Part shown: positions 3,544 to 22,919 of the stretch, piece after piece | Layout of the letters: each line of letters starts with the position of its first letter | Numbering within the stretch: position 1 is the first letter of the stretch | From: a virus | Virus record (IMG/VR): IMGVR_UViG_3300050016_000384 | Location: 1 to 25,327 of that record | Length of the DNA stretch: 25,327 bases | Strand: one strand, 5' to 3' | Notes under the pieces: model-generated | The model's database searches: none | Told to the model about the DNA's origin: nothing | Seen by the model: the letters and a program-made list of their open reading frames with translations, nothing else | Position numbers and translations under genes: made by a program

Positions 3544-4236
3544 ATGCCGGTAACGCCCAATGCGATCGACCTCACGACCGTCGCGAACGTTCAAAACTGG
3601 CTCTCTGGCGGGAGCTGGTCTACCGCCGAGCAGCAGAGCTGCCAGGATTGCATCACCGCAGCTAGCGCCTACTGGCTTTGGACTCTTGGCCTCGGCCCGC
3701 AGAACGGCGCAGCGCCTACCGCATCGCCTCTCAACTCCATCGTTGCTGCAATATCTGAAACCTACGATGGCGATTGTTCGTCGCGTCTCTTTCTTCGCAT
3801 TCGACCAATCGTTTCGGTGTCATCGCTTAGCGTCAACGGCGTCGCGATCCCTGCATCGAGCGGCATCAACAATCCCGGCTTCGTCATCGATGGATCGGGA
3901 AAGTCGATCGCGATCCGCGCCGGCTTCGGCTCGCCAGCCACCGGGCGACTCACCGTTGGTTTCAGTTTCTTGCGTGGCGGATGTCGCGGATGGAGTTTCG
4001 GCGAAGGGTTACAGAACGTCCAGGTCGTGTACAGCGCCGGCTATGCGGCCACGCCATTCGATATCGAGTTCGCTTGCCGCCAGATGGTTGCGGTGAATTA
4101 CAAACGCCGGCAATGGATCGACCAGGGCTCGCAGATGATGGCGAACGGCGCGGGATCGGTGAGCTATCGGAGTTGGGAGCTGCCGCCAGAAGTGCGATCG
4201 GTGATGGAGCAGTACAGACGGAGAGCAATCGCATGA
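3544..4236 (+). CDS. Head-tail connector, gp6-like
   Basis: Probable head-tail adaptor that docks under the portal ring. The 230-residue protein starts with a helical segment (TTVANVQNWLSGG, EQQSCQDCITAASAYW). A beta region follows (RPIVSVSSLSVNGVAIP, SIAIRAGFG, RLTVGFSFLRGG), then a helical end with FDIEFACRQMVAVNYKRRQ and YRSWELPPEVRSVMEQYRRR. That helix-beta-helix order, with the RPI-x-V-SSL-x-VNG core and the FACRQMV helix, is typical of gp6-type connectors. The start at 3544 sits about ten bases after AGGAAA. An overlapping ATG at 3534 leads only to a 42-codon out-of-frame ORF. The stop overlaps the start of the next gene as ATGA. In most relatives a stopper and gp10-like gene follow directly; here a two-gene insertion intervenes. 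Confidence 0.7.
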   Translation: MPVTPNAIDLTTVANVQNWLSGGSWSTAEQQSCQDCITAASAYWLWTLGLGPQNGAAPTASPLNSIVAAISETYDGDCSSRLFLRIRPIVSVSSLSVNGVAIPASSGINNPGFVIDGSGKSIAIRAGFGSPATGRLTVGFSFLRGGCRGWSFGEGLQNVQVVYSAGYAATPFDIEFACRQMVAVNYKRRQWIDQGSQMMANGAGSVSYRSWELPPEVRSVMEQYRRRAIA

Positions 4237-7052
4237 GACGCTTCACGCAATTTTGTTTGGCCGCAATCCTGTTGGCTCTGCCGAGCGCCAGTAAAGCTCA
4301 AGTCGTCAATCTCACTGTGACTGCCACGCCAACGCCGATCGTTGTCGATCGCACATCCGGTTTCGTGTTCATCCGCGAAAACTCGGCAACGCCGACAGCA
4401 ACATTTTCGATCAAGCTCGCGAATAGCAACGTGGCGCAGAATTTTGCCGCGGGTCAGGCATTCGTATTCCAACCCGGAACGCCTTTCCCGAGCGGCGCCA
4501 CCATCGGAACGATCGTCGCAATGTCCAGCGGCCCATACAACTTTGCGGCGTCTGAAATGGCGACACCGCCAAGCGGCGGCGCAACTGGCGTCGGCGGCAA
4601 CGGACTTCTTTCGCTCAGCGTGACGAACACTCCCATTCCAATTGTCACTGACACCACGGCTGGTTTCGTTTTCATTCGCGAAAACGCTGCGTCACCTTCC
4701 GCTGTCTTTTCGATCACCATCGGCGGCGTCACGCAGAACTTCGCAGCCGGCCAAACCTTCACGTTTCAGCCAAGCACACCGTATCTGCCGGGCACGACGA
4801 TTGGCACCATCGTTGCGACGACGTCCGGACCGTTCAGCTTCACCGGCGCGGAAACATTTTCGTTGCCAGCAAGCGGCGGTAGCAGCGGCGCAGCGAGCAC
4901 CGGTCCAACGGGTACTGCCGGTGGCGATCTGTCCGGAACGTATCCGAATCCGACCGTCGCGAAAATCAACGGCAGCACGCCTGCCGCGAGCGCGACGACG
5001 GACACAACCAATGCAACTAATATCGTTTTGGGAACCTTGCCGCATGGCCGGTTGCCAGCACTTCTCTCAGGCGATATCCCCGCGAACGCTGCGAATACTT
5101 CGGGGAACGCGGGCACCGCAACAGCCCTCGCGGCAGCTCCGAGCGATTGCTCGGCAGGAAGCTACACCATCGGTGTGAACGCGGCGGGGAATGCTCAGGG
5201 TTGCACCGCTCTTGCCGCCAGCGCGACGACCGATACAACGAACGCGGCGAACATTACGGTCGGCACCCTGCCTCACGGACGCTTGCCGACGCTTCTGTCC
5301 GCCGACATTCCCAACAATGCGGCGAACACCAGCGGAAACGCGGCTACGGCCACGGCGCTTGCCGCTACTCCATCGCAGTGCGGAGCCAACAATTTCGCGA
5401 CCGGCGTCGCTGCCGGCGGTAACGCGAATTGCGCGCAGCCCGCTGCAGCGAACATCACCGGTTTAGCGGCCAGCGCCACAACCGATACGACCAATGCTGC
5501 GAACATCACGGTTGGTACACTTCCTCATGGGCGGCTGCCCACCTTGCTTTCGGCGGATATTCCGAACAACGCCGCCAACACTTCCGGAACAGCCGCGTCG
5601 CTATCAGCAACCCAGGCGGCAAATACTGTTCTCGGCGGACCCTCGGCTTTCGGCGCGGCAGCCGCTGCGCCGACACCACGGACTCTTACTCCCTACGACA
5701 TTCCTGGTGGGTATGGGGCTTGTGCGATCTTAGATTTCTCGCTCTGCACTTCCTTTGCTACCAGCGGTAATCCCAATTTCATGGCGCAAGGAACGTGCTC
5801 AGTCACGTGCGGGTTGACCATCACCGGGTCGGGCCTTTCGATGTTCATCAACGGCGTGTATCAGGCGGGCGCGGGCACCTACACCAATGCGATCACTGGT
5901 CTGGCGGCTTCGAACTACTATTTCATCTATGCGATGCAAGACACCGCGAACGCTAACCTGGTAGCTGCGGATTTTGGAGCTACCACGATTCCGTTCATCT
6001 ATTCGTACGCCGCGCCAACCGCTTGCACTGGAGCGACTTCTTCGACGCCAGAGTATTGGTTCAACATGGCGATTCGGCAGTGGGAAATTTCCACTGCAGC
6101 GGCGTGCTCGTTCTCGATAGCATCCCCGCAAATCCTGTCGCTTGGCGATCTGTGGGTGACCGCGACACCAACCATTCCAACCATTGGAGCAGAGCCTTGC
6201 AATCTCGGCCCCTATCACCGCTACGAACTGTTTGGCGAAGGCATGGATTATCAACAAGGCGGGACCGATCTCACCGCAAAGCTGCTCACCAGCGGCACCA
6301 CCATTCTTGACGGCTGGCATACCCTAGCGGCGTTCAACCTAAGTGGCGCAACGGTCAGCCCAACGACGGAGAACACTGGCGGGACCGTAAACGGGACAGT
6401 CGTTGTCTACTCCCAGAATCCTGTCCTGTTGTTGAACGGCGCAGCGGTAAACGCCAATGGTCTCGGCCGGGGAGGAGCTGGCGGCGGCACCGCAGCGGGC
6501 GGCGCGGGGACAGGCGGGGGTTATGGCGGCGCAGGTGGCGGAGGGGGCGGCGGGGCTTCTGGCGCTGGTGGCGGTGGAGCTAGCAGAACAAAAAACACTT
6601 CTACAGACACAGGTATCGGGAACGGCGCTGGTGGCACGACCGGAAGCGGCACCGGAGCCAATGGCATCAACACTCCGATTCCCAGCCCCTCATTTTGTAA
6701 TACATCGCTGGGCCTAATCGGTGGAGCGGGTGGGTCAGGCGGAGGTGACGGCACCAACGTGAGCGGCGCAGGTGGTGCCTCTGGCGGCGGCATCGTCATC
6801 AAGGCTCCTGCAGTTGTACAAGACGGTTCTTCCAGCATCACCGCCAACGGAGCCAATGGTGTTTCCCCGGCGGCCGGAAACGATGGTGGTGGCGGTGGCG
6901 GCGGCGGTGGAGTTGCTGTTGTTTGTGTCGGTTATTACGCACTCTCCGGTACCGACACAGCAACTCACGGCAATGGTGGCGCGTTGCACGGAACTGGCGG
7001 CGCTGGCGGCGCAGGAAGCAACGGTCTCTTTCAGGCGGTAAAACTCTGGTGA
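4233..7052 (+). CDS. Exported fibre/adhesin with tandem repeats and poly-Gly end
   Basis: 939-residue fibre-like protein with a Sec-type signal peptide (MRRFTQF, then hydrophobic CLAAILLALP, likely cut SKA/Q near residue 22). Residues 24-115 and 125-216 are two copies of an unrecognised domain sharing GFVFIREN, QNFAAGQ and GTTIGTIVA-like blocks. Then comes GDLSGTYPNPTVAKI, a common phage tail-fibre motif, and three copies of a roughly 51-residue unit containing GTLPHGRLP. Residues about 490-740 hold several Cys and look globular. The last 195 residues are Gly-rich with runs of Gly, as in phage fibre tips. The ATG overlaps the connector stop (ATGA) and GGAGA lies eight bases before it, so I prefer it to the longer open frame from 3981, which only shadows the connector. 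A signal peptide is unusual for a virion fibre. It may be exported to the cell surface, or be a captured host adhesin fused to fibre repeats. Confidence 0.7.
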   Translation: MRRFTQFCLAAILLALPSASKAQVVNLTVTATPTPIVVDRTSGFVFIRENSATPTATFSIKLANSNVAQNFAAGQAFVFQPGTPFPSGATIGTIVAMSSGPYNFAASEMATPPSGGATGVGGNGLLSLSVTNTPIPIVTDTTAGFVFIRENAASPSAVFSITIGGVTQNFAAGQTFTFQPSTPYLPGTTIGTIVATTSGPFSFTGAETFSLPASGGSSGAASTGPTGTAGGDLSGTYPNPTVAKINGSTPAASATTDTTNATNIVLGTLPHGRLPALLSGDIPANAANTSGNAGTATALAAAPSDCSAGSYTIGVNAAGNAQGCTALAASATTDTTNAANITVGTLPHGRLPTLLSADIPNNAANTSGNAATATALAATPSQCGANNFATGVAAGGNANCAQPAAANITGLAASATTDTTNAANITVGTLPHGRLPTLLSADIPNNAANTSGTAASLSATQAANTVLGGPSAFGAAAAAPTPRTLTPYDIPGGYGACAILDFSLCTSFATSGNPNFMAQGTCSVTCGLTITGSGLSMFINGVYQAGAGTYTNAITGLAASNYYFIYAMQDTANANLVAADFGATTIPFIYSYAAPTACTGATSSTPEYWFNMAIRQWEISTAAACSFSIASPQILSLGDLWVTATPTIPTIGAEPCNLGPYHRYELFGEGMDYQQGGTDLTAKLLTSGTTILDGWHTLAAFNLSGATVSPTTENTGGTVNGTVVVYSQNPVLLLNGAAVNANGLGRGGAGGGTAAGGAGTGGGYGGAGGGGGGGASGAGGGGASRTKNTSTDTGIGNGAGGTTGSGTGANGINTPIPSPSFCNTSLGLIGGAGGSGGGDGTNVSGAGGASGGGIVIKAPAVVQDGSSSITANGANGVSPAAGNDGGGGGGGGGVAVVCVGYYALSGTDTATHGNGGALHGTGGAGGAGSNGLFQAVKLW
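4302..4880 (+). repeat. Duplicated ~92-residue domain in the fibre
   Basis: Two protein-level copies, starting at 4302 and 4605. Both contain TPxPIV, GFVFIREN, FSI, QNFAAGQxFxFQP, GxTIGTIVA and a closing Pro/Ser/Gly linker. They have diverged at DNA level, so the duplication is old. I do not recognise the domain. Confidence 0.75.
4983..5588 (+). repeat. Three fibre repeats with GTLPHGRLP core
   Basis: Units begin at 4983, 5214 and 5466. Each reads AASATTDTTNA, then NI, GTLPHGRLP, LLS-DIP and NAANTSG. Between units 1-2 and 2-3 is a spacer with a cysteine pair (PSDC to GC; PSQC to NC). The second and third units are nearly identical in protein, which suggests a recent duplication. Such units usually form the trimeric shaft of tail fibres. 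Confidence 0.8.
6466..7023 (+). repeat. Gly-rich low-complexity tip of the fibre
   Basis: Two GGC/GGT-rich blocks (about 6466-6590 and 6720-7023) encode runs of up to seven or more Gly separated by Ala/Ser/Thr. They are split by a short ordinary stretch with one Cys. Poly-Gly tips occur in phage adhesins such as the gp38 type of T-even phages, where they vary between strains and set receptor range. The same role here is inference. Confidence 0.7.
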
Positions 7053-8323
7053 AAAGAGTTTTCCTAGCCCTCCTGTTGGCGGTTAGCTTGCCTCTGACTG
7101 GCTTGCCTCAGTGCCAAGCTCCAGCAACACCTGCGTTGCCGGCTGGATTTTTCGGCATGACCATCGGCACGCGAAGCAACGTTCCTTCAATTTCTTTCGG
7201 AGGATTGCGCTTGTGGGACACCACCGCCGTGTGGCCACTGATCGAGACGGCGAGCGCTACTTACAGTTGGACGGAACTAGATGCGTGGTTAGCCAAGGCG
7301 CAAACCGCTGGTGCGGATGTGCTCTTTACTTTCGGCAGAACTCCGAGCTGGGCCACCACCGGATGCAGCGGAACGTATTCTCCTGGTAGCTGCGCTCAAC
7401 CGCCCACCGACATCGGCTCGGGCGACACTACTTTCAAAACGTTTGTAACCGCGCTGGTCAACCATTCGGTCGCCAGTTCAACCGCGCACATAAAATATTA
7501 CGAATGCTGGAATGAGCCGGACCTAACCGGAACCTGGTCGGGAACTGCTGCGCAACTGGTGACCATGTGCAGCGATATGATTGCGATCGTTCACTCGCTC
7601 GATTCCACCGCCCTGGTTGTCGGCCCGTCTCCAAGCACCGCAAACCCCTCTGGTGTCCATTTTCTTCCGGCTTACTATGCCGCTGGGGGCGCGCCGTATC
7701 AGGACATCGTGGGGCTGCACGCCTATATATACGGCAGTGGCAATCCTCCTCCGAGCACCAACTGTTACGGGGGTAGCTTCAACCCTGGTCCCGGTTGCGT
7801 CCAGGTCAGCATTGCCCAACTGCAATCGTTGATGATCGTCAATGGTATCGGTTCAAAACCGATCTTCCTCACCGAAGGCAACTGGGCGCCTTCCAACAAC
7901 AGCACCTTCACCGACGATCAAAAGATCGCGTACCTAGGGCAAGAATATTTGCTGATTTGGGGAAGCGGCACACAAGTTGCGCGGTACTACTGGTACGCCT
8001 ACGACAACACCAGCGGTTTCGGACCGTTGTCGATTTCGGGAACGATCACTCCCGCCGGAACTGCATATGGTTTGCTCTACAACTGGCTGGTTGGTTCGAC
8101 GCACGTCTCGAATAATTGCGGCATCGATTCAAATGGAACGACTCTGTGCACGCTCACACGCTCAGGACAGCCAGCACAGATTTATTTCAACCCGACCACC
8201 ACGGTTTCCGAACCGGTCTCATCGACCTATGTGCACGACCTCACGCTCGACAACGCAACCGTAAACAGCATTTCTGGCGGCGCTGTGAGCGTTGGCGCGA
8301 AACCCATCATGGTGACGCCCTAA
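7049..8323 (+). CDS. Secreted glycoside hydrolase, clan GH-A-like
   Basis: 424-residue enzyme expected to hydrolyse a polysaccharide or oligosaccharide outside the cytoplasm. The signal peptide is MKRVFLALLLAVSLPLTG. The catalytic domain (about 33-345) shows TIM-barrel glycosidase marks: an early strand GGLRLWD, the acid/base candidate Glu156 in ECWNEP, GLHAY on a middle strand, and the nucleophile candidate Glu276 in FLTEGNW. That WNEP/TEG pairing about 120 residues apart is typical of clan GH-A (GH5, GH39 and relatives); I cannot choose the family or substrate. Residues about 345-424 form a small beta domain (AQIYFNP, VHDLTLDN), as in GH39-like enzymes. Three close Cys pairs (TTGC-GSC, NC-GPGC, NNC-TLC) fit disulfides in an exported protein. 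The start is GTG at 7049 overlapping the fibre stop (GTGA); longer upstream frames only shadow the fibre. Confidence 0.8.
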   Translation: MKRVFLALLLAVSLPLTGLPQCQAPATPALPAGFFGMTIGTRSNVPSISFGGLRLWDTTAVWPLIETASATYSWTELDAWLAKAQTAGADVLFTFGRTPSWATTGCSGTYSPGSCAQPPTDIGSGDTTFKTFVTALVNHSVASSTAHIKYYECWNEPDLTGTWSGTAAQLVTMCSDMIAIVHSLDSTALVVGPSPSTANPSGVHFLPAYYAAGGAPYQDIVGLHAYIYGSGNPPPSTNCYGGSFNPGPGCVQVSIAQLQSLMIVNGIGSKPIFLTEGNWAPSNNSTFTDDQKIAYLGQEYLLIWGSGTQVARYYWYAYDNTSGFGPLSISGTITPAGTAYGLLYNWLVGSTHVSNNCGIDSNGTTLCTLTRSGQPAQIYFNPTTTVSEPVSSTYVHDLTLDNATVNSISGGAVSVGAKPIMVTP

Positions 8324-8806
8324 ATGCTGAAATTCTCGTTCAACAATTCGGACGTTCGCCTGGTCGAGAACCTCCGCGCCAAAGGTCCGCAAATCATCCA
8401 GGCCGTCACCCGCAAGATGGACGAGCTCATGCTTTGGCTCCAGGCGAAGATCGTTGGCGAAAAGCTGCAGGGGCAGGTCCTCCAACACCGCACCGGTAAA
8501 CTCGCCGCGAGCATTCGCGCGATTCCAGCGACGGTGGAAGGGACGTCGGTCGTCGGCGCTGTCGAGGGCGCCGGCGGTCCTGCGTTCTACGGCCGGTTTC
8601 TTGAAGAGGGAAGTGCGCCGCACGAAATCGTTCCGGTCAACAAAGCGGCTCTGGCGTTCATCCTCAACGGCAAGCAGGTGTTCTTCAAGCGGGTGCATCA
8701 CCCGGGCACGCAGGCGTACCGCTTCATGGAAAAGTCGCAGGAAGAGATGCGTGCAGCAATGTTTGCCGGACTGACTGAATCGGTCTATGCGGAGCTCGCG
8801 AAATGA
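8324..8806 (+). CDS. HK97 gp10-like neck/tail completion protein
   Basis: 160-residue protein of the HK97 gp10 type, which acts at the head-tail interface. It has an N-terminal helix (LVENLRAKGPQIIQAVTRKMDELMLWLQAKI), the conserved RTGKLAASIRA block, a strand region (TSVVGAVEGAGGPAFYGRFLEEGSAPHEI), and the ending HHPGTQAYRFMEKSQEE. RTGxLxxSI, YGxFLExGtxPH and HPGxxAxxFM are family hallmarks. The ATG directly follows the TAA of the glycosidase gene with no spacer. It restarts the normal neck-gene order after the inserted cassette and overlaps the next gene by four bases. Confidence 0.85.
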   Translation: MLKFSFNNSDVRLVENLRAKGPQIIQAVTRKMDELMLWLQAKIVGEKLQGQVLQHRTGKLAASIRAIPATVEGTSVVGAVEGAGGPAFYGRFLEEGSAPHEIVPVNKAALAFILNGKQVFFKRVHHPGTQAYRFMEKSQEEMRAAMFAGLTESVYAELAK

Positions 8807-9255
8807 ACGTCTCGCGCGAAGCCGTCGCCGCGGCGCTCTTCACGCAGCTCGCTGGAACGAAGATTGGCGGCGTCTCGCCATTCAACACCACTGGCCGGCG
8901 CGCGCGGATCTGGAGCGATCTCAGTCCTGGCGATCAGCCCGCGATGTTTCTGATCCATACCGGCGAGCAGGCCGTCCAGAATCAGGCACCGGGATTGACA
9001 AAATGGATGTTGCACTTTGAAGTTTTAATCTACGCTCGCGTCGATCCGAGCCCGAGCTCTACGCCGGACACATTCATCAATGCCATCCTCGATGCTCTCG
9101 ACGCGCAGATGCAAACCACGCCGCCAGGCGAGCGCCAAACCCTCGGTGGAGTCATCTACAACGCGTGGATCGAAGTACAAATTTTCATCGACACCGGGAT
9201 TCTCGATCAGCAGATCGCGATCTTGGTGCCAATTCGAGTGATGACAGGAATTTAG
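8803..9255 (+). CDS. Tail terminator-like protein
   Basis: 150-residue protein in the usual position of the tail terminator, between the gp10-like gene and the major tail gene. It begins with a helix (SREAVAAALFTQLAG), then RIWSDLSPGDQPAMFLIHTGEQ, a strand LHFEVLIYARVD, a helix (TFINAILDALDAQMQ) and C-terminal strands AWIEVQIFIDTG and QIAILVPIRVMTGI. This alpha/beta layout, with an early W/P-x-D-QPAxFL motif and a final strand of the form VPIxV, fits the terminator family (lambda gpU, HK97 gp10-neighbour types). It would cap the tail tube and join it to the neck. The start overlaps the preceding stop (ATGA). Confidence 0.7.
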   Translation: MNVSREAVAAALFTQLAGTKIGGVSPFNTTGRRARIWSDLSPGDQPAMFLIHTGEQAVQNQAPGLTKWMLHFEVLIYARVDPSPSSTPDTFINAILDALDAQMQTTPPGERQTLGGVIYNAWIEVQIFIDTGILDQQIAILVPIRVMTGI

Positions 9256-9276
9256 CGAACGCCGTGAGGCATTCGC
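9255..9276 (+). promoter_or_regulatory. GNRA-tetraloop hairpin before the major tail gene
   Basis: GCGAACGCC at 9255-9263 pairs with GGCATTCGC at 9268-9276 (eight of nine positions; one C-A mismatch) across the loop GTGA, a GNRA tetraloop. The structure ends just before the Shine-Dalgarno AGGAGG (9278-9283) and GTG start (9289) of the major tail gene. It may protect or process the mRNA 5' side or isolate the ribosome site from upstream translation. There is no T run, so it is not a typical terminator. Confidence 0.5.
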
Positions 9277-9288
9277 CAGGAGGAAGTC

Positions 9289-10038
9289 GTGTTCAATTTC
9301 GGTACTGGCTACCTTTTTGCAAATCCTACAGCGCAGAACCTTGCGACGAATCCGACGCCGCAATACTTCGGCACGGTGCAGGAAATCAGCGTCGAGTTCA
9401 GCGCGACGATCAAAGAGCTCCGCGGCAACCTGCAGTTTCCTGACGACACCGCAATCGCTGACAAGAAGATCTCCGGAAAGATCACGTTCGGAAAGATTGA
9501 AGTCAGCGTGTTCAATCAGCTTTTCTTCGCCGACTCGTACACTTCCGGCGTGACCGGAATGCAGCCGTTCGAGGCGCACGCCGTTCCCACCACGCCGTAC
9601 CAGGTCACCATCGCGCCGCCAGGCAGCGGCGCGTACATCATCGATCTCGGCGTGCGCTACGCCGCAACCGGTGTCGAGCTCACGAAAGTCGCTTCCGGTC
9701 CGACGGTCGGCCAGTACTCGGTCAACACCAGCACCGGCGTTTACACCTTCGCCGCAGCCGATTCGCTTGCCAACGTGCAGATTTCCTACACCTACACTTC
9801 CACCGCCGGAAACACTTTGACGGTTAACAACCAACTGCAAGGCTACGGCCCGCAGTTTGAGTTGTGGCTCACCGAGCCATACTCCGGGACCGGCAACGGT
9901 TTGCACATCTACGCTGCGAAGGCCGGAAAGATGGCAGCGCCTCGCAAGCGCGACGACTACACGATCATGGATCTCGAATGGCAAGGCTTCGCCAACGCCG
10001 GTGGCAAAGTCTTCGATTGGTTCCAGACCTCGGTATAA
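9289..10038 (+). CDS. Major tail (tube) protein
   Basis: Probable tail tube subunit. The 249-residue protein lies between the terminator-like gene and the tail assembly chaperone genes, the conserved site of the major tail protein. Beta-rich segments include QYFGTVQEISVEFSATIKELRG, KKISGKITFGKIEV, YQVTIAPPGSG, GQYSVNTSTGVYTF and NVQISYTYTS. The end is TIMDLEWQGFANAGGKVFDWF. The KELRGNLQFPxDTAIADKKISGKI region is typical of tail tube proteins of siphoviruses with GTA-like tails. A strong AGGAGG five bases before the GTG at 9289 fixes the start and suits high expression. No Cys is seen. A small Ig-like part around residues 95-180 may project from the tube. Confidence 0.8.
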   Translation: MFNFGTGYLFANPTAQNLATNPTPQYFGTVQEISVEFSATIKELRGNLQFPDDTAIADKKISGKITFGKIEVSVFNQLFFADSYTSGVTGMQPFEAHAVPTTPYQVTIAPPGSGAYIIDLGVRYAATGVELTKVASGPTVGQYSVNTSTGVYTFAAADSLANVQISYTYTSTAGNTLTVNNQLQGYGPQFELWLTEPYSGTGNGLHIYAAKAGKMAAPRKRDDYTIMDLEWQGFANAGGKVFDWFQTSV

Positions 10039-10047
10039 GGAGCGGGT

Positions 10048-10413
10048 TTGCCGCGAACTAAGACGATCGAGCTTGACGGCGCGAAATTCATCATCGCGGC
10101 GCTCACGCTCTCACAGGTGGAAGAGTTTCTCGCTGATCATCGCGACGCACTTGGCCTGGACGATAAAGGCAACGCGCGACCAGGTGCGACACCGGACGAA
10201 AAGAAACTCAAGCAGCTCTGGCGGAAGTTCATCTGCGTCGGATTGAACAACGCAGCGCAAAACGGCGAGAAGCCACGCGAACCGAAGACACTCGCCGATG
10301 AACTCGACCTCGTATCGTTCGAGATGCTCAGAAACGAACTGCTCAAGTTCAGTGGACTCAAGGCGCTCGATGAGGAAAAAAAAACAGAGCGCGCCGCGGC
10401 CGCAGCCTCTTAG
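10048..10413 (+). CDS. Tail assembly chaperone, G-like
   Basis: 121-residue helical, charged protein in the position of lambda gene G, between the major tail protein and the tape measure. It begins with a short beta motif (KTIELDGAKFIIAALTLSQVEEF), followed by helices with KLKQLWRKFICVGLNNAAQ and FEMLRNELLKFSGLKALDEEKK. Tail assembly chaperones coat the tape measure during tail building and are not part of the virion. The start is TTG at 10048, supported by AAGGAG at 10037-10042, five bases upstream. Near its 3' end is a run of nine A where a -1 shift would move ribosomes into the following frame. Most ribosomes should continue to the TAG at 10411-10413 and make the short form. Confidence 0.75.
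   Translation: MPRTKTIELDGAKFIIAALTLSQVEEFLADHRDALGLDDKGNARPGATPDEKKLKQLWRKFICVGLNNAAQNGEKPREPKTLADELDLVSFEMLRNELLKFSGLKALDEEKKTERAAAAAS
10376..10384 (+). promoter_or_regulatory. Slippery A9 site for -1 frameshift (G to G-T)
   Basis: Nine consecutive A follow GAGG in the zero-frame reading GAG GAA AAA AAA ACA. The -1 frame has a TGA at 10371-10373, immediately before the run, and is then open to 10703, while the zero frame stops at 10411-10413. The shift must therefore happen in the short shared window that contains the A run. A-rich heptamers allow tandem slippage of both tRNAs. Polymerase slippage on the same run is an alternative mechanism. Confidence 0.7.
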
Positions 10414-10703
10414 AGGAGATTCCAGAAATTCGAGGCTGTTTTGTGACAGCGACCTCTCTGACATTCGACCAGATCGACGCGCTGCCATTCCCGCAAGTTC
10501 TCGCTCAGTGCGAATACTGGGCCGACAATCCTCCCGCACATCTCTTGCTCAAAGCCTACGTCGGCTACAAACCGACGAAGAGTCGCGACGTGAATCGTTG
10601 GGAACGCGAAGCTTTGCCACCGCCGAACGCCGCACTTCCGCCACCACCGCCATACGTTCTCGCCGCTATGAAAGCTCACAAATCGGAGCGCGCTAATGCC
10701 TGA
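10383..10703 (+). CDS. T segment of tail assembly chaperone G-T (frameshift product)
   Basis: Best read as the C-terminal part of a G-T fusion. A -1 slip at the A9 run joins residues 1-112 of the G-like protein to 106 residues of this frame, giving about 218 residues. Independent initiation looks poor: the frame has no ATG, and its first usable codon is GTG at 10443. The nearest Shine-Dalgarno-like GAGGAG lies about 26 bases upstream of that GTG. The segment contains FDQIDALPFPQVLAQCEYW, HLLLKAYVGYKP and a Pro-rich end (PPPPPYVLAAM). In lambda the T domain recruits tail tube subunits to the tape measure. A gene finder would report only 10443-10703 (86 residues). The stop overlaps the tape measure start by eight bases. 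Confidence 0.65.
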   Translation, partial: NRARRGRSLLEEIPEIRGCFVTATSLTFDQIDALPFPQVLAQCEYWADNPPAHLLLKAYVGYKPTKSRDVNRWEREALPPPNAALPPPPPYVLAAMKAHKSERANA

Positions 10704-13269
10704 CGCCCTCCGCATAGTTTCCGAATTCGACGTTGGTCCGATTGTTGCCGGTGTCGACGTTGCTGCGGCCGCTGTAAAGACGGGCACGCAGCAAATGGCC
10801 GCTGGGTTCACGCAGGCGACGAATTCGGCCATCGTCATGATGAAAGCAATTCAGGCGACGGGCGCTACCGTCGCTCAAGCTGCGGCGCAAATGGAGGCTG
10901 GGGGCGTCGGCGCGAATGCTATAGCGGCAGCAGTTCAGGCCGTAACAGCGGCCGCTCAACAAGCACCTCCCGCCCTCGCGCAGACAACGGCCGCAGTCAA
11001 CGCGGTGACCGCAGCAACCACGCCATTGGTACAAGGCGCGAACAACGTCCGGGTCGCCTTCACCGGATTGACTCAGGATCTTGGCATCCACGGATCGCGC
11101 GCCCTTGGCAGCTTCATCGCACAATCGCAAACGCTTGGTCCGATCATTTCCAAAGCTTTCGCCGGAATCGCAGTCCTCGCATTCGTCGAGATCCTCGATC
11201 AGGCAAACAAAAAGCTCGCCGAAATAACTGACAGCGTCGCGGGTTTTGGCAAGGCGGCTCAAAAGGCCTACAAAGAGGCCCTCGACGCAAATCAGCACGC
11301 CATCATCAGCAACATCGAACTGAATGAGAAAGTTCGAGATCTCGCAACCATCGGAACAGCCGGTATTAAGAAATACTCGCTCGAACAAGAGAACTCGGCG
11401 CGGACGGCACGCGAAATGTCCGATGCGATGATGGCTGCGAACCGCCAGCTTGACCAGCAACAAGAGCTAATGCGGCACCTAGAGAATGCTGCCGATTTCT
11501 GGCATGACCCGCTGTATGGATTGACTGGTGCAACGCGAGCGCTGAAAGAGGGAACTGAAACACTCGAGCGCTACAAGAAAACCGTCGATGAGCTACAGCC
11601 AAAGGTGAAAGATCGGCTCTTCGTCGAAAAGCCAAAACACGAAAGAGAAGAAACAGTTCGATCGCGGGATGACGAGCTGGCGGCCGAAAGGGCCTCTTCG
11701 GAAGCACGACGCGAAATCGAGAACTCCTATCTCGAATACTACCTTTCAGCTTTGAGGCAGATGCGCGCGGCCGGGCAGATCACGCACGATGCCGATGTCG
11801 ACGGAGAGATCGCCGCGGTCAACGCGAAGCTTGCCGAAGATCGACGATACGCGTCGGAACGCAAGGCTCAACTATCGGTTGAAGCTAAAACCGGGAAGGA
11901 CGTACGGCCCGAGCTGGAATCATTGAACGCTCAGCTCATCAGCCAGGAAACTGCAGCGCAGCAAAAAATAAATGAAATCCGATCAACTGCGGAGCAAGAG
12001 CGTATCGGCCACGCCAATGCTGTTTCGCTTGCGCTGGCTGAGGCCGACAAGGCCGCAACCGAAGCCGAAGTTCGCGAAGCCGATCGCGGCGCGAAACTAA
12101 AACTCGAACAACTTAAAATCTCCGACGAGGAATACGCTGCGCTACTCAAAGCGAACAACGCTAAAGAGATCCAAGCCGCCGTTCAGCTCGAAGAGGAAAG
12201 GGTTCGCGTCGGCAGTCAGAACGCCTACAAAAACCAGGAAGCGATCATTCGAGCGCAGGGAGAAATTGTAAGGATCAAGCAGGAAGGCGCGGCTAAGGAA
12301 CACGAAATCGATGCCGACCTCGCTAAGAAAACCATCAAGGATCAGGAATACGCATTGACCGAGGGAGTGCGGTTACAGGAAGAAGCCGGCAAGAACGAGC
12401 TCGAACAAATCCGTGCGAACGCAGAAATGAAATCGAAAGCAATGGAGGCGACTTCGTTCGCTGGCGCCGCCGATCCGCGCATGATCCAGATCGCCGACGC
12501 TGCCCTCGATCAGCAAGCTTTCAAGATCATGGATTTGATCGGCCTGGAAGAGCAGCTTCGCCAAAAGCTCATCCAGACGGGCCTCGCGGAAACCGATCCG
12601 AAGATCCAGGAAAGCCTGGCGCGGCAACAGCAGCTCGTCCAGCAGCTCACCGTCGCGATGCAGAAGTACGACAACGCCGTTCAGAACGTTTCGCTCAAAC
12701 AGTTGAAAGACTTCAAGAGCTCCTTCGAGCAGATCTCGAACGAATTCAACCGGAGCATCGTCGGCTGGATGAACGGCACCGAAACGTTCGGTCGCGCGAT
12801 GGCGAAGCTTTGGACGACGATGGCGGACCAGGCGGTAACAGCGCTCCTCAAGATCGCCGAACAGGAGCTCGTGGGCCTGGCGCTGCACCAAACCATGGCC
12901 GACACCCAGAAATTGAGCGACGCGAAGCTCGCCGCGGCGAATACCTACGCCTCAGTGTCAGCCGTACCGATCATTGGCCCTGTATTGGCTCCAGCCGCAG
13001 CGGCGGCGGCATTTGCGGCGGTCCTGGCATTCGAGAAGGGCGGCATCGTTCCTGAGACCGGCCTGGCGATGCTCCATTCGAAGGAAATGGTCCTCCCCGC
13101 GCATATCAGCCAAAGCGTTCAGCAAATGGCCGATGGCGGCGGATCTGGCGGAAATCTGCAGGTTCACTTCCACGGTAAGCAAGCGAAGGAAGATCACGCC
13201 GGCATGGAAAACCAGCTTGTGAGGATGGTCAAACGTGCGCAGCGCCGCGGAAGGATCACCCGGCCGTGA
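10696..13269 (+). CDS. Tape measure protein
   Basis: 857-residue protein that sets tail length and passes through the tail tube. It follows the chaperones, as in nearly all siphoviruses. Residues 1-110 are Ala-rich with IVAGVDVAAAAV and many Gln/Thr. About 130-190 holds hydrophobic stretches (GIAVLAFVEIL). About 230-680 is long, charged coiled coil rich in Glu, Lys, Ala and Gln (for example QEYALTEGVRLQEEAG). The end has a hydrophobic Ala-rich segment near 755-785 (VSAVPIIGPVLAPAAAAAAF) followed by FEKGGIVPETGLAMLHSKEMVLP, a motif common at tape-measure C-termini. At about 0.15 nm per residue the length would predict a tail of roughly 130 nm. I see no Cys and no lytic domain. The ATG overlaps the T stop. 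Confidence 0.88.
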   Translation: MPDALRIVSEFDVGPIVAGVDVAAAAVKTGTQQMAAGFTQATNSAIVMMKAIQATGATVAQAAAQMEAGGVGANAIAAAVQAVTAAAQQAPPALAQTTAAVNAVTAATTPLVQGANNVRVAFTGLTQDLGIHGSRALGSFIAQSQTLGPIISKAFAGIAVLAFVEILDQANKKLAEITDSVAGFGKAAQKAYKEALDANQHAIISNIELNEKVRDLATIGTAGIKKYSLEQENSARTAREMSDAMMAANRQLDQQQELMRHLENAADFWHDPLYGLTGATRALKEGTETLERYKKTVDELQPKVKDRLFVEKPKHEREETVRSRDDELAAERASSEARREIENSYLEYYLSALRQMRAAGQITHDADVDGEIAAVNAKLAEDRRYASERKAQLSVEAKTGKDVRPELESLNAQLISQETAAQQKINEIRSTAEQERIGHANAVSLALAEADKAATEAEVREADRGAKLKLEQLKISDEEYAALLKANNAKEIQAAVQLEEERVRVGSQNAYKNQEAIIRAQGEIVRIKQEGAAKEHEIDADLAKKTIKDQEYALTEGVRLQEEAGKNELEQIRANAEMKSKAMEATSFAGAADPRMIQIADAALDQQAFKIMDLIGLEEQLRQKLIQTGLAETDPKIQESLARQQQLVQQLTVAMQKYDNAVQNVSLKQLKDFKSSFEQISNEFNRSIVGWMNGTETFGRAMAKLWTTMADQAVTALLKIAEQELVGLALHQTMADTQKLSDAKLAAANTYASVSAVPIIGPVLAPAAAAAAFAAVLAFEKGGIVPETGLAMLHSKEMVLPAHISQSVQQMADGGGSGGNLQVHFHGKQAKEDHAGMENQLVRMVKRAQRRGRITRP

Positions 13270-14003
13270 GCTCACAGGTCTATCCCGCAGCCGTACGAGG
13301 TCTAACCTGGACGGTGCTGAAGAGCTTCGAATTCAACACCATTAAACAGGCTTCCGCGGCTAATGTGCAGACGCGGATCGTGCAGGCGCAAAACCCGACG
13401 TGGCACTGGACGCTCATCTACGACTACCTCAAAGACTATGTGAACGACATTTTGCCCGGCTTTACCGACACCGACTTTCGGACGCTGCTCGGCTTCATGC
13501 TCGCGCGCCAGGGCATGTTTGATGACTTTCTGTACGACGATCCGTACGACAACTCGGTCGGTCCTGGACTGCTTCCAACCGGCGGCCCAAACCTCGGTGC
13601 ACAGCTCCAGCTCGTGCAGGATCCCACAACCGGAATCTGGTATTCGCCGGTACAGCGGCTCATGGGCGGCCAGTTCTACGAAGACGTCACCGATCTGTAC
13701 TCGAGCGGAATTTCCGCTTTCGCGAACGGGATCACCAAGGTTGGCGGCGGGATGGATTACACCCTGCTCGGTCCAGGTCTTGCGATCCCGGGTTACTCGT
13801 TCTGTGGCCCCTATCTCAAGTGGACCGGAACGCCGACGCCGCCGATCACCGCTGAATTCAATTTCTACTTTCGCGTGTGTTTCGAAATGGACGATCAAGA
13901 CTTCGAGCAGTTCATGCAATTTCTTTGGACCATCGGCGGCGGCTCATCGAAGAACGGATCCGGGATGCTGAAACTCGTCACTGCCAGGACGGCGAATCTA
14001 TGA
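13266..14003 (+). CDS. Distal tail protein, DUF2460-like
   Basis: 245-residue tail protein resembling DUF2460, the family of gene transfer agent gp12. Supporting features are the N-terminal LTWTVLKSFEFNT, the NPTWHWTLIYDYL block, the FRTLLGFMLARQGMFDDFLYDDPYDNSV block (family form: loop of a residue count, then F-x-DPxD), and the end FYFRVCFEMDDQDFEQF. This family forms the distal tail ring joining the tube to the tip. The GTG at 13266 overlaps the tape measure stop by four bases, and its stop overlaps the next ATG as ATGA. In relatives DUF2163 follows directly. Here a two-gene secreted cassette and a small unknown gene are inserted first. Confidence 0.7.
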   Translation: MSSQVYPAAVRGLTWTVLKSFEFNTIKQASAANVQTRIVQAQNPTWHWTLIYDYLKDYVNDILPGFTDTDFRTLLGFMLARQGMFDDFLYDDPYDNSVGPGLLPTGGPNLGAQLQLVQDPTTGIWYSPVQRLMGGQFYEDVTDLYSSGISAFANGITKVGGGMDYTLLGPGLAIPGYSFCGPYLKWTGTPTPPITAEFNFYFRVCFEMDDQDFEQFMQFLWTIGGGSSKNGSGMLKLVTARTANL

Positions 14004-15472
14004 AGCGCTGGGCACTGTTAATCGCACTCTGTTTGTTGCCGAGCGTAGGACGCTCGCAATCACTGACGACTCTTTCACCGCCGAACACCATCGCCGGCTC
14101 GACGGACATGACGCTGACAGTGCTCGGCACGAATTTTCAGACGGGCGCGACGATCAACTGGAACGGCGTCGCGAAATCGACGACGTTCATTTCGTCGTCC
14201 ACACTCACGACGATCATCAATACCGCGCAGCTCGCTGCAGCCGGCGCCGCGCAAGTTACCGTAACGCAGAGCGGCCTCACGCTAGGACCACTCACGTTTC
14301 AGATTCTTTCGCCGATCTCAACCGGGATCTCGTATCAGCCCACGGTGTTCACGCCTGGCACGAACGCGTATGTCACCGTTACCGGACAAGGCTTCAATAC
14401 GACGGCCACCGTTTTCTTCGATTGGTTTCCGGTGATCACCACGTTCATTTCGCCGACGACCCTCTCCGCATTTATCCCGGGATCGGAAATCTCTAGTGCG
14501 TCTCAGCATCACGTTCTGGTCTACAACGCCGCAGTACCGGCGGGCCGGCCTAGCCTGCAGGTGCAGGTGCAGCAAAAATTCGGCGTACAGACCACCGGTA
14601 CGACGTCGAACCAGACCATCACGATCACGAACATCTCCGCTTCGACGGTGACGCTCTCAAGTCCTTTCCGCATTCTCACCGGTCCGAATTCCGGCGACTT
14701 CGCGAACATCACCGGCGGCACCTGCAGCAATGGCGGCACGTTGGCATCCGGCGCGAGTTGCACAGCGACGTTCAGCTTCACACCTTCGGTCCTGGCCGGC
14801 GAGCTCGCGGTTGCTTCGATTCAGAGCAACGGCATCGGCAGCCCGCAGTATGTGAATCTGGCCGGAACGGGCGCACCTGTCGCGGCGCCAGCGCTAACGA
14901 TCTCACCGTCCGGACTTTTGTTCGGCAACCAGGTGCAATCAACCGCCTCGAACTCGATCACTGCGACGGTCACAAACTCCGGAACGAGTGCGCTGGATAT
15001 GAGCGCTCTGGTCATCACCGGCACAAACGGATCCGACTTCACACTGACCGGCGGGAGCTGCACCAGCACGACGGTGCTGCAGCCCGGCGACACCTGCTCG
15101 ATGACGGTGACTTTCACGCCGTCGTTGACGTCGACCGAGTCTGCCGAAATCAGCATCACCGACAACGCGGTGGGAAGCCCTCATCTTTTGCCGCTGCACG
15201 GATCCGGCGTGACGGCGACTGCGCACTACGTCGCGCTCGCATGGACTACCTCAACCAGTTCGAACTTGCTCGGCTACAACATCTATCGCGGATCGACGAA
15301 CGGCGGTCCGTATACGCTGGTGACTCCTTCGCCAGTAAACGGCACCGGCTACAACGACACGCAAGTCACTCATGGGGTGATTTGCTATTACGTGATCACC
15401 TCGGTCGGCACGAATCCACCGTACAGCCCGGTAGAAAGTCCGGACTCGACGCAGGTGAATGCGACGCCATGA
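14000..15472 (+). CDS. Secreted IPT/choice-of-anchor/FN3 multidomain protein
   Basis: 490-residue exported protein made of beta-sandwich domains. Signal peptide MKRWALLIALCLLPSVGRS, likely cut before Gln. Then two IPT/TIG-like domains (about 24-105: TTLSPPNTIAG, LTVLGTNFQTGATINWNG; and about 107-195: VTVTGQGFNTTATVFFDW). Next are two choice-of-anchor D-like repeats (about 195-295 and 300-410), each with a Cys pair (GTC-GASC; GSC-GDTC) and SGDFxxxxGGxC and CxxTxxFTPS motifs. A final FN3-like domain has VALAWTTSTSSNLLGYNIYRGSTNGGPY. Such proteins are abundant in the secretomes of soil Acidobacteriota and usually bind surfaces or polysaccharide. A structural role in the virion is possible but nothing proves it. 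The ATG at 14000 overlaps the distal tail gene stop; a longer open frame upstream is only a shadow. Confidence 0.75.
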   Translation: MKRWALLIALCLLPSVGRSQSLTTLSPPNTIAGSTDMTLTVLGTNFQTGATINWNGVAKSTTFISSSTLTTIINTAQLAAAGAAQVTVTQSGLTLGPLTFQILSPISTGISYQPTVFTPGTNAYVTVTGQGFNTTATVFFDWFPVITTFISPTTLSAFIPGSEISSASQHHVLVYNAAVPAGRPSLQVQVQQKFGVQTTGTTSNQTITITNISASTVTLSSPFRILTGPNSGDFANITGGTCSNGGTLASGASCTATFSFTPSVLAGELAVASIQSNGIGSPQYVNLAGTGAPVAAPALTISPSGLLFGNQVQSTASNSITATVTNSGTSALDMSALVITGTNGSDFTLTGGSCTSTTVLQPGDTCSMTVTFTPSLTSTESAEISITDNAVGSPHLLPLHGSGVTATAHYVALAWTTSTSSNLLGYNIYRGSTNGGPYTLVTPSPVNGTGYNDTQVTHGVICYYVITSVGTNPPYSPVESPDSTQVNATP

Positions 15473-16968
15473 GGAAAACCGCAATCGTTCTGCTCGCCTT
15501 CTTGGCTGTCTCTTTCCTGGCGATCGTTTATGCGCAGTCCAATCTTCCAGCTTTTCCGGAGGCTCAGGGCGGGGGAGCTGCGGCGAGGGGAGGCCGCGGC
15601 GGTCAAGTAATCGAAGTGACCAATTTGAACGACTCGGGATCGGGATCTCTGCGCAATTGCATGGAATCGTCCGGCGCACGCACCTGCATATTCCGCGTCT
15701 GGGGAATCATCAACGTTCAGGGAGATCTGCGAGTTGGAAACGGCTCTCTGACCATCGCCGGCCAGAGCGCTCCGAGCGGCGGAATCAAACTCATCGGCAC
15801 CGGCGCGATGATGTGGATCAATACCGACAACGTGCAGGTTCGCTATCTTACATACGATGGCAACAGCGCGAACAACGGCCCTGGTGCCGGCTCAGTCAGC
15901 TTCGACGCCGGCAGCGGCGGAAATACGCACGATGTCATCTTCGATCACGTTTCTGGCTTCCACGTCACCAACAAGCAGCTCATCGTTTTGCGGAACAACA
16001 CCGGCCCGGTCAGCAACGTCTCGTTCCAATGGAGCATGACCTTCCAGCCCGACGCCGCACATCCGGTTGGCCCGATGGTCGACGCGACGACCGGGCCTGC
16101 GATCGACGTGAACAACATCGATTACCATCACAATTTCTTTGGCGATACTTCGCACCGCCTGCCGCTGTACAACGGCCACATTGGACGCTGGGTTTCGAAC
16201 ATCATCTACAACTGGGATCAATTCGCGACGCTTGTTCAAGGCGGAGCTCAGTTCGATGCGATCGCAAATCACTACGTTTCCGGCCTCGGCTTAGGTCACG
16301 GCGGAAGCTGCAATCCTCACGAGATCGAAGGCGATTTAGCGCAGAGTCAGGATGACACTTCCGCGTCCATGCCTGGGCCGCCGTCTTTCTACTTGAGCGG
16401 CAACACTGGCCCAAACGGAACGGATTGGGCGATGACTGCGGAGGTTCGTAGCGAAGGCGGTTGCGAAGCGGGATTCCCGAGCCCGGTCGAAAATAGCTGG
16501 CGCCGCAGCAGCCCGCTTCCGACCGAGCCATTTCCAATCACGCCGGATGCGGCGACCAGCCTCGATACGGTACTGCTCTCGCTGGTAGGAAATTCTCGCG
16601 GTCTCGATTGTCACGGCAACTGGGTTGCGCGTCGGCAGACCGAAGACGCGGAGATGATCAACGAATATGTGAACGGTCTCACCGGTTCGCTGTGGACCGC
16701 ACCGGGCGGATACGTCACTGCGGCGGTTCCATCAAACTCGTCGATCCCTACATGCACCGAATCGCTGCACGATGGAATGCCGGATCAATACAAAACCGAT
16801 AATGGGTTGAGCACCACGGACACTGGACTCGCACAAAGAGCCGCACCGAATGGCTACACGTGGCTCGAAAATTACTTGAACGGGAAAACTGGATCGAGCA
16901 CCATCACGCCGCCGCCGGCGTCGGGAACGCCGTTGCCTCCGACTGGCGTGACAGCTACTCCACACTGA
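15469..16968 (+). CDS. Secreted polysaccharide lyase family 1-like (pectate lyase)
   Basis: 499-residue enzyme expected to cleave pectin-like uronate polysaccharide by beta-elimination. Signal peptide MRKTAIVLLAFLAVSFLAIVYA, cut before QSN. The mature N-terminus has the PL1 opening FPEAQGGG-ARGGRGGQVIEVTNLNDSGSGSLR, then RTCIFRVWGII and LTIAGQSAPSGGIKL. The core beta helix has DVIFDHVSGF, DYHHNFFGDTSHRLPLYNG and VSNIIYNW, a near-textbook PL1 block in which Arg230 (SHRLP) is the candidate catalytic Arg. Near 430-470, DGMPDQYKTDNGL and GYTWLENYLNG resemble the Ca-binding thrombospondin-3-like tail common after such lyases. The end PPTGVTATPH looks like the first strand of an FN3 domain cut short. 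Several Cys pairs are present. The start overlaps the previous stop (ATGA). Substrate is inferred from family only. Confidence 0.82.
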   Translation: MRKTAIVLLAFLAVSFLAIVYAQSNLPAFPEAQGGGAAARGGRGGQVIEVTNLNDSGSGSLRNCMESSGARTCIFRVWGIINVQGDLRVGNGSLTIAGQSAPSGGIKLIGTGAMMWINTDNVQVRYLTYDGNSANNGPGAGSVSFDAGSGGNTHDVIFDHVSGFHVTNKQLIVLRNNTGPVSNVSFQWSMTFQPDAAHPVGPMVDATTGPAIDVNNIDYHHNFFGDTSHRLPLYNGHIGRWVSNIIYNWDQFATLVQGGAQFDAIANHYVSGLGLGHGGSCNPHEIEGDLAQSQDDTSASMPGPPSFYLSGNTGPNGTDWAMTAEVRSEGGCEAGFPSPVENSWRRSSPLPTEPFPITPDAATSLDTVLLSLVGNSRGLDCHGNWVARRQTEDAEMINEYVNGLTGSLWTAPGGYVTAAVPSNSSIPTCTESLHDGMPDQYKTDNGLSTTDTGLAQRAAPNGYTWLENYLNGKTGSSTITPPPASGTPLPPTGVTATPH

Positions 16969-16984
16969 GGAATGGGAGGGAACT

Positions 16985-17242
16985 ATGAGTTTCACAGTCG
17001 ATGCGATCGACAGCTACTATCACCCAAAGATCGGATTCGGGATCGATCAAAAGAAAGCGGCGATTGAGTTACGTCGCCTAGCAGACGAAATAGAAAAACC
17101 CATTCCAGAAATGGGCGGAGAGTATATCTGCATCCAGGAAGCGATCACACTCGAAACCGTCAACATTGACGATTATGCGATGACCACGCTCGTGCTCAAA
17201 TTCGCAACCAAGAAATCCGACGGCGGTATCAGGCCCACATGA
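16985..17242 (+). CDS. Small conserved-looking protein, unknown
   Basis: 85-residue protein I do not recognise. It begins FTVDAIDSYYHPKIGFGIDQKKAAIELRRLADEIEKP and ends with strands YICIQEAITLETVNIDDYAMTTLVLKF, so it is probably a small alpha/beta domain with a soluble, cytoplasmic look. A strong GGGAGGGAA lies just before the ATG, showing that translation restarts independently after the secreted cassette. It may be a cassette-associated cargo gene or a small tail-assembly factor. Its stop overlaps a 22-codon ORF as ATGA. Confidence 0.6.
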   Translation: MSFTVDAIDSYYHPKIGFGIDQKKAAIELRRLADEIEKPIPEMGGEYICIQEAITLETVNIDDYAMTTLVLKFATKKSDGGIRPT

Positions 17243-17307
17243 AGCGACGGCGCACTAAAGAAATGCGGAATTACCGCCTTGAGCGCTCAAGCATGGGGAA
17301 ATCTTGA
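17239..17307 (+). CDS. 22-residue basic micro-ORF
   Basis: A 22-codon ORF (MKRRRTKEMRNYRLERSSMG, then KS) starts at an ATG overlapping the previous stop (ATGA, 17239-17242). It ends at a TGA overlapping the TTG start of the DUF2163 gene (TTGA, 17304-17307). It thus bridges two genes with the same stop/start chaining as the rest of the operon. Of its first 17 residues, eight are Arg or Lys. It may encode a micropeptide or only carry ribosomes to the next weak start (translational coupling). It is too short for homology to decide. Confidence 0.35.
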   Translation: MKRRRTKEMRNYRLERSSMGKS

Positions 17308-18239
17308 AAACCGTCATCGGCGGATCGGGCTCTGACACTTCGGCCGCCACACTCACGTATCTCACCAACAATCACCAATTCAAACTGGCGGATCTGTATC
17401 TGATCGGCGAAGTCGAGGATCCCAACGCGATCTGGTTAACCGACTGGCAATCGCCGCTGGTCTGGCCGGCGATGGGAACGTTCAATCCGACAGCGATCTC
17501 ACGCGGCACAGTGACGATGAACATTGGCCTCGAGGTCGCGAATCTCGAAGTCGATTGGTCGCCAAAGCTCACTGCGTTCGGTCAGACCGCTGCAACCGCG
17601 AATTTCTATCAAAAGGCGTGGCTCGGTTTCTATCGCAACTGGCGCGTGCGAATCTGGCGCACGATCATGCCGACGCCAGGCGACGCGAATACCTACGGCG
17701 CATATCAGCTCTTTGGCGGGCGGATCGCCACGGCTGAGGTTTCCCGCGGGAAGATCAAGTTCACGATCAACAGCTTCCTCGATTGCGTGAATGAACAAGT
17801 TCCTCCGAACGTCATCGAGACAACAAACATCCTGGCCGGCTATAGCGGCGCGACACCGGTCCTGGTCGACGGTGAGACGTCGTTGCCACAGTTCACGGCC
17901 GTCAATCCAAGTTCGACGACCACAATCGTTGCGGTCTGCAATTCACCGACGCCGAACAAGGTTTACGGCGATAACAAACTGCAATTCGGCTACCTGGTAT
18001 TTCTGCCGGGGTCGACGCTCGCGGGCGCGTTCTCGCAGATCGCGACCAGCGACTACTACGACGCCGGCGGCGGCGTTCACCTGAATCAATTGTTCGTGTA
18101 CGCGCCGTTTCCCTGGGCGCCGACGACCGGCGACAAATTCTACGTTTCGACAGCTTTCCCACTGGATCAAACCGCGGCGGCCGCAGCGGGCGTCTATCGG
18201 GGATTTCCATATGTGCCCGCACCGGAGACGGCCGCATGA
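17304..18239 (+). CDS. Tail tip hub protein, DUF2163-like
   Basis: 311-residue tail protein resembling DUF2163 (gene transfer agent gp13 family), which forms the hub between the distal ring and the tip. Supporting features are the N-terminal LTYLTNNHQFKLADLYLIGEV (where ADLY-L-L matches the family's first strand), SRGTVTMNIGLEVANLEV, WRVRIWRTIMPTPGD, and the later GRIATAEVSRGKIKFTINSFLDCVNEQVPPN. The TTG at 17304 is preceded by GGGGAAA and overlaps the micro-ORF stop. The next gene is the NlpC/P60 peptidase, as in gene transfer agents and many lambda-like phages. Confidence 0.72.
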   Translation: MKTVIGGSGSDTSAATLTYLTNNHQFKLADLYLIGEVEDPNAIWLTDWQSPLVWPAMGTFNPTAISRGTVTMNIGLEVANLEVDWSPKLTAFGQTAATANFYQKAWLGFYRNWRVRIWRTIMPTPGDANTYGAYQLFGGRIATAEVSRGKIKFTINSFLDCVNEQVPPNVIETTNILAGYSGATPVLVDGETSLPQFTAVNPSSTTTIVAVCNSPTPNKVYGDNKLQFGYLVFLPGSTLAGAFSQIATSDYYDAGGGVHLNQLFVYAPFPWAPTTGDKFYVSTAFPLDQTAAAAAGVYRGFPYVPAPETAA

Positions 18240-22628: not shown

Positions 22629-22919
22629 ATGGCGAACGCTCAGGTAACTCAGCTCGCGGTCGAAGTTCTGATCAGCCAGACTGCGGCGGCCGAAGTTACC
22701 CAGGCAGCTATTGAAGTTCCGCTGCTACAAACCGCGACGGCGGAAGTCACGCAGGTTGCGGTCGAAGTTGTCGTCGGAACCAGCCCACTCGCGCAGGTGA
22801 CACAGACCGCGGTGGAAGCCGTGATTCTTTTGCCGGTTACTGCGCAAGTAACTCAAGCGGCGCTGGAGATTTTGACGCAAGGATCGGGATTGAAGCCGTT
22901 CATTTTCGTTGCGACTTAG
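22629..22919 (+). CDS. Small protein of five 17-residue VTQ-A-VEV repeats
   Basis: 96-residue protein made almost wholly of five perfect-length 17-residue repeats (residues 4-88), each beginning A(Q/E)VTQ-xA(V/I/L)E. The strand-turn period and lack of charge clusters suggest a beta solenoid, hairpin stack or trimeric fibre shaft. Related VTQ-x-x-VEV repeats occur, as far as I recall, as unnamed phage proteins near tail tips. The gene abuts the previous stop (TAG then ATG). Its own TAG lies inside the AGGAGG ribosome site of the next gene. Confidence 0.6.
   Translation: MANAQVTQLAVEVLISQTAAAEVTQAAIEVPLLQTATAEVTQVAVEVVVGTSPLAQVTQTAVEAVILLPVTAQVTQAALEILTQGSGLKPFIFVAT
22638..22892 (+). repeat. 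Five tandem 51-base protein-level repeats
   Basis: Five units of exactly 51 bases with the consensus A-Q/E-V-T-Q-x-A-V-E-V followed by seven variable residues. The protein period is exact while DNA identity is only moderate, which points to selection on the repeat length. Confidence 0.85.

Follow-up and report, generated by a model that had tools for sequence, protein, structure and literature searches.

Predicted Sec-exported adhesins and polysaccharide enzymes at two exchange sites in the structural operon of a soil phage lineage

Phage depolymerases and fibres are generally regarded as virion parts made in the cytoplasm. Why would a tailed phage carry, inside its structural operon, four genes whose products begin with what look like Sec signal peptides? 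The DNA analysed here (the window) is a virus fragment of 25,327 bases from IMG/VR (virus IMGVR_UViG_3300050016_000384). Its late block encodes a protease-like protein, a major capsid protein (named by position only, its match phrog_13692 carrying no function), connector, gp10-like protein, terminator, tube and tape measure, and then a tail tip. The tail tip has the order DUF2460, DUF2163, NlpC, Phage-tail_3 tip, which marks a siphovirus with a GTA-like tail tip and is the order found in gene transfer agents. Four extra genes interrupt this operon. A1 (4233–7052) and A2 (7049–8323) occupy site A, between the head-tail connector (3544–4236; phrog_442 head-tail adaptor, 5.7e-17) and the gp10-like neck protein (8324–8806; phrog_5). 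B1 (14000–15472) and B2 (15469–16968) occupy site B, between the DUF2460 distal tail protein (13266–14003; PF09343) and the DUF2163/hub protein (17304–18239; PF09931). These genes and their borders are all on the plus strand; the first-pass annotation of this DNA had the coordinates and order of the four right, and all four frames are intact.

Each of the four starts overlaps the preceding stop by 4 nt (ATGA at 4233, 14000 and 15469, GTGA at 7049), as had been pointed out, but the same overlap is found at five other junctions of the window (8803, 13266, 18236, 23944 and 24881). It is a general property of the operon and was rejected as a signature of the cassettes. As read from the sequence, A1, A2, B1 and B2 are translationally coupled within a siphovirus structural operon. 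Two other places in the window deserve mention. Between the tail assembly chaperone and the tape measure gene is a gap of 282 nt (10414–10695), a place at which one might look for a chaperone extension made by frameshifting; and just 3' of the tail fibre gene, positions 22629–22919 encode a 96-residue protein of near repeats (AQVTQ-AVEV-type units).

Signal peptides were called with a rule set, not with SignalP, and scores of single proteins need rechecking. The rule set accepts OmpA, PhoA, MalE, Bla, LamB, DsbA and TolB, rejects GroEL and SecY, and passes 1.05% of whole-protein shuffles when the score threshold applied later is left off. All four extra proteins are flagged as Sec-type, in agreement with the first reading of their N-termini, and no other gene in the window scores. 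The predicted cuts are MRRFTQFCLAAILLALPSASKA^QVV in A1 and MRKTAIVLLAFLAVSFLAIVYA^QSN in B2. Across the clade the rate is 3/539 for core structural genes and 11/16 for accessory genes between DUF2460 and DUF2163 (Fisher 4e-17); accessory genes between connector and gp10 give 3/4. Rates outside these sites (28/119 downstream of the tip, 16/147 upstream of the protease) are below that of site B. These clade counts take in the window's own four genes, and also two doubtful proteins away from the sites, the portal of contig L107 (overlong start) and a lipoprotein-like protein of L037. Among 118 structural-region genes of reference phages (lambda, D3, YuA, two Brevundimonas phages and one Acinetobacter phage), only three were flagged: Lom, the Rz spanin and a signal-bearing (SAR-type) endolysin, which are exactly the known exported kind.

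A1 is a predicted exported adhesin of tail-fibre-like character, with fibre-like repeats and a glycine-rich C-terminus. Single-sequence scanning of IMG/VR gave no close relative and INPHARED no match. Residues 451–744 share 51% identity with a fibre of the related contigs L002 and L094 that itself has a signal peptide, and A1 belongs to a linked cluster of 12 signal-peptide fibre proteins. A2 combines its signal peptide with a GH39/PslG-like hydrolase domain. It belongs to clan GH-A by Pfam Glyco_hydro_cc (26.5 bits against a cut-off of 21), matches GH39 beta-xylosidases in the PDB by sequence (4.4e-7) and, using a low-confidence model, GH39/PslG by Foldseek (2e-10). Its catalytic residues E156 (WNEP) and E276 (TEG) are invariant across three viral homologues; in the low-confidence model they fall at strand ends 149–155 and 272–276, in keeping with catalytic glutamates at the ends of strands 4 and 7. 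The proposal that A2 is a GH-A-like polysaccharide hydrolase therefore gains a domain match and both glutamates. PslG itself, a GH39 enzyme of Pseudomonas aeruginosa that is among the nearest solved folds or sequences and acts on a bacterial polysaccharide, is a bacterial gene, unlike phage A2, and less than 20% identical to it. PslG disperses Pseudomonas biofilm by disrupting the exopolysaccharide matrix (PMC7237758).

B1, by its domains, is a predicted exported adhesin or scaffold. The IPT/FN3 description given to it earlier is borne out by models above cut-off: choice-of-anchor D (ASH; NF012200, 102 bits against a cut-off of 45) and IPT/TIG (PF01833), along with FN3, domains that fit exported proteins of the choice-of-anchor D/IPT kind. 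Relatives at the same site, 31–46% identical, retain the signal peptide with a Gln near the cut, and the cysteine pairs of the choice-of-anchor D domains (C242/C254, C354/C366) are invariant among them. In INPHARED, B1 is matched through its repeat domain only, in Erwinia phages. B2 is probably the PL1-like lyase it was first taken for: it matches phrog_27797 pectate lyase (2e-18) and, in the PDB, pectate lyase 9buj (6.8e-16) and VexL (9e-8). There was no Pfam match and, in a single-sequence scan of IMG/VR, no close relative. B2 is not PelZ itself, because it scores 86 bits where the equivalog cut-off is 840. Its structure model (pLDDT 30) is useless for placing a catalytic Arg or Ca-binding Asp. 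Matches to fecal 'phage' pectate lyases were set aside as unverified, unannotated scaffolds. VexL, the Vi lyase, is among the nearest solved folds or sequences and acts on a bacterial polysaccharide, but is again a bacterial gene.

B2 ends in PPTGVTATPH (window 16936–16968). Two otherwise unrelated enzymes of L013 (8824–8856 and 9972–10004) share this end as PPTG[LV]TA[VT]PH, which resembles an FN3 domain truncated by a stop codon after its first strand. It was rejected as a general export or sorting signal: a DNA-pattern scan matched only L013 and its near-duplicate L175, and the tail therefore looks like lineage-local module history.

Are these simply host-captured auxiliary metabolic genes that degrade plant pectin or xylan and feed the infected cell? 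PL1 and GH relatives do occur in Acidobacteriota genomes (34–38% identity), and soil viruses do carry active CAZymes such as a chitosanase, which resembles the enzymes described here in being a carbohydrate enzyme encoded by a soil virus contig; the text of the paper describing it mentions neither secretion nor signal peptides (PMC9485262). Against this, the genes sit inside a virion operon, the enzymes are paired with adhesins, and the nearest functional matches include enzymes for bacterial exopolysaccharide (PslG, VexL); we regard plain metabolic capture as very unlikely. Nor do the four look like secreted endolysins, since none has a peptidoglycan hydrolase domain. Sec-exported endolysins, among them Lys44 of Oenococcus phage fOg44 and the SAR endolysins (reviewed in PMC6116005), are phage enzymes exported by host Sec before lysis, as is predicted for the window's enzymes, but their target is peptidoglycan, which they break down for lysis, and their genes do not lie with adhesin genes in head-tail blocks.

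How general is the arrangement? Scanning with alignments of DUF2163 and of the capsid protein yielded 87 non-redundant related contigs (labelled with L-numbers). Site B is empty in 27 of the 44 contigs in which it could be measured and site A in 30 of 45, so that the empty sites which the first-pass annotation had proposed to look for exist at both positions; since relatives lack an insert at either site, the function is accessory. Site B holds signal-peptide genes in six contigs, the window included, and in the contig-end cases L005, L120 and L173/L174. What it holds varies: B1 alone, B1 with other enzymes, or other exported proteins. In L013, B1 is followed by two beta-helix-like proteins, L173 has B1 and one other, and in L030 the site has four proteins with export-type N-termini, one of them missed by the strict rule. 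(The tail tip of L030 also encodes a signal-peptide protein of 2,185 residues, at 10963–17520, flanked by DUF2163 and NlpC.) In a DUF2163 tree four B1 carriers, the window among them, fall within one set of nine rows (99/99) whose other members lack B1. Judging by the genes present, one phage subclade carries B1 recurrently and exchanges the enzyme behind it.

Site A content is likewise exchanged among relatives. In the sister contig L011 the site has a PL1 homolog of B2 (31% over 357 aa); of other sisters, L012 has fibre-like ORFs there and L069 a short ORF with a signal peptide. A1 and A2 occur together elsewhere only in L002/L094, upstream of the protease and with two GH genes, all with signals. 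The idea of two parallel pairs thus holds insofar as both lie between conserved late genes, but they are one instance of a clade-wide habit with exchanged contents. Small proteins made of a signal peptide and a single FN3 domain were also seen (L130:11751–12125, L181:776–1075, L182:7935–8270); one adjoins lineage capsid genes and two are in contigs in which no lineage core genes were detected.

The same comparison bears on whether the locus is an artefact of misassembly, which the first-pass annotation had named as fatal to its proposal, or of chance hydrophobic N-termini. The window is, after all, a virus fragment of 25 kb. However, L013, an independent contig, and its near-duplicate L175 have the order DUF2460-B1-enzyme-DUF2163 with junctions of the same kind, and relatives have empty sites, which makes misassembly unlikely; with relatives of the same arrangement found and the statistics strong, we give an artefact of either kind almost no weight.

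Cysteine content had been offered as a further mark of the four proteins. Counts including the signal peptides are 14 (A1), 9 (A2), 6 (B1) and 6 (B2). The tube and tape measure proteins do lack cysteine, as claimed, and so do gp10 and the terminator; the contrast fails within the window for the connector (5), NlpC (6), the tip (9) and DUF2163 (2). Across the clade it is real and significant. Per 1000 aa, mature signal-peptide proteins have 18.5 Cys and core proteins 6.75. The count is even in 54 and odd in 17 of the former (binomial 1e-5), against 154 and 220 of the latter. Since NlpC, the tip and the protease also contain cysteines, richness alone is no proof and parity is the better sign; rich, even cysteine is as expected of disulfide-bonded secreted proteins. 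Chromosomal Acidobacteriota proteins flagged under the same rule have even counts in 23 cases and odd ones in 20, without the bias; the contrast is thus a property of this phage protein class and not of exported proteins at large.

The best reading, to which we assign a probability of about 0.55, is that these are late-made phage adhesins and polysaccharide enzymes that are exported through Sec and act outside the producing cell. The virus-encoded export programme suggested at the outset is supported in this form by the predicted signal peptides, the identity of the enzymes and the position in the operon. The four genes would be expressed late and alongside virion parts, as their place in the structural operon and overlapping start and stop codons lead one to expect. 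Host Sec would move the proteins out of the cytoplasm, signal peptidase would cut them, often before Gln, and disulfides would form. A2 and B2 could then cut host exopolysaccharide or capsule, with A1 and B1 holding enzymes or virions to the same polysaccharide. Progeny could then get away from slime-producing soil bacteria and spread, and glycan that would trap virions would be cleared away; this would be the benefit to the phage. Sites A and B would be exchange points at which phages of the lineage swap exported modules. A signal peptide alone takes a protein only to the periplasm, and no outer-membrane export signal was identified.

Several of the exported proteins look like tail fibres, which are usually virion parts, and this counts against action outside the cell. 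Known virion-bound depolymerases (tailspikes, fibre-associated pectate lyases and hydrolases) likewise have PL1-like or hydrolase domains, lie among structural genes and target surface polysaccharide; but they fold in the cytoplasm and are devoid of signal peptides, and the enzyme homologs seen in other phages, the Cr30 'xylanase' and the pectate lyase of a podophage, have no signal at their start, whereas signal peptides are predicted on all four window proteins. Could the four be virion adhesins and depolymerases all the same, sent through Sec, disulfide-bonded in the periplasm and docked on tail tips at lysis? Site B is within the tail-tip block, and Brevundimonas phages of the same backbone have in its place fibre-like proteins and a DUF2460 fusion, all without signal peptides. 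(The cultured Brevundimonas phage Polewnik, L147, has such genes and the fusion at 23389–28815 and is usable as a laboratory comparator.) Fibre domains are found on signal-peptide proteins and also on others whose N-terminus is different and signal-less, and the even cysteine counts would fit as well. In L030 (5505–6777) a signal-less stub of 129 aa adjoins an exported protein with the same N-terminal domain (54% over 79 aa), possibly a docking pair or a paralog with a changed N-terminus. On the other side, no docking domain was identified, the window already encodes an ordinary fibre without signal peptide (P19), and we know of no tailed phage that assembles in this way. Such a detour is, on balance, rather unlikely.

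Another explanation can point to lambda Lom, an outer membrane protein encoded by a tail-region moron; like the window's genes, lom is a signal-peptide gene at the tail-fibre end of a late operon, although Lom is a single small outer-membrane protein and the window's set comprises enzymes and multidomain adhesins. Exported adhesins might cover the phage's glycan receptor on the infected cell while the enzymes remove it, so that the cell is not superinfected and progeny are not lost on debris; Llp of phage T5 does likewise for a protein receptor. Domains common to exported and presumed virion fibres would suit such decoys. Genes expressed together with virion genes come late for exclusion, however, and neither a clear lipobox nor a clear outer-membrane anchor was seen; we consider decoys improbable. 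Both this and virion assembly by way of the periplasm are live rivals of Sec export for action outside the cell, and sequence cannot separate them.

Which host would do the exporting? One relative is in a contig of an Acidobacteria MAG, which could be a binned virus. A backbone relative on a 584 kb contig, from a genome of the Acidobacteriota set, has host-type flanking genes, which indicate that it is integrated in the chromosome; both its sites are insert-free. The first residue after the cut (+1) is commonly Gln, in 31 signal peptides of the phages and in 14 of 58 from Acidobacteriota. Because of the MAG contig, the integrated relative and this shared Gln, Acidobacteriota are the likely, though not proven, host of the window phage.

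A wider proposal, put forward tentatively, is that the lineage sends some of its adhesins and depolymerases through host Sec, with disulfide folding outside the cytoplasm and either action on the matrix before lysis or joining to virions after export. We found no description of such a two-compartment scheme of virus production for tailed phages, and no paper describing signal peptides on phage tail adhesins in a search that covered few subscription journals. In this soil phage family, proteins of this type repeatedly carry export signals, and they do so at constant positions in the tail operon where modules are exchanged. If Sec export for action outside the cell is correct, phages of slime-forming soil bacteria would dissolve or coat the matrix from within the infected cell before lysis. 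That would have a bearing on the escape of progeny in soil and on the ability of tail adhesins to carry disulfides. Viral CAZymes of this kind would then have to be counted as matrix-cutting tools and not as carbon metabolism, and the lineage is a source of candidate exopolysaccharide-degrading enzymes.
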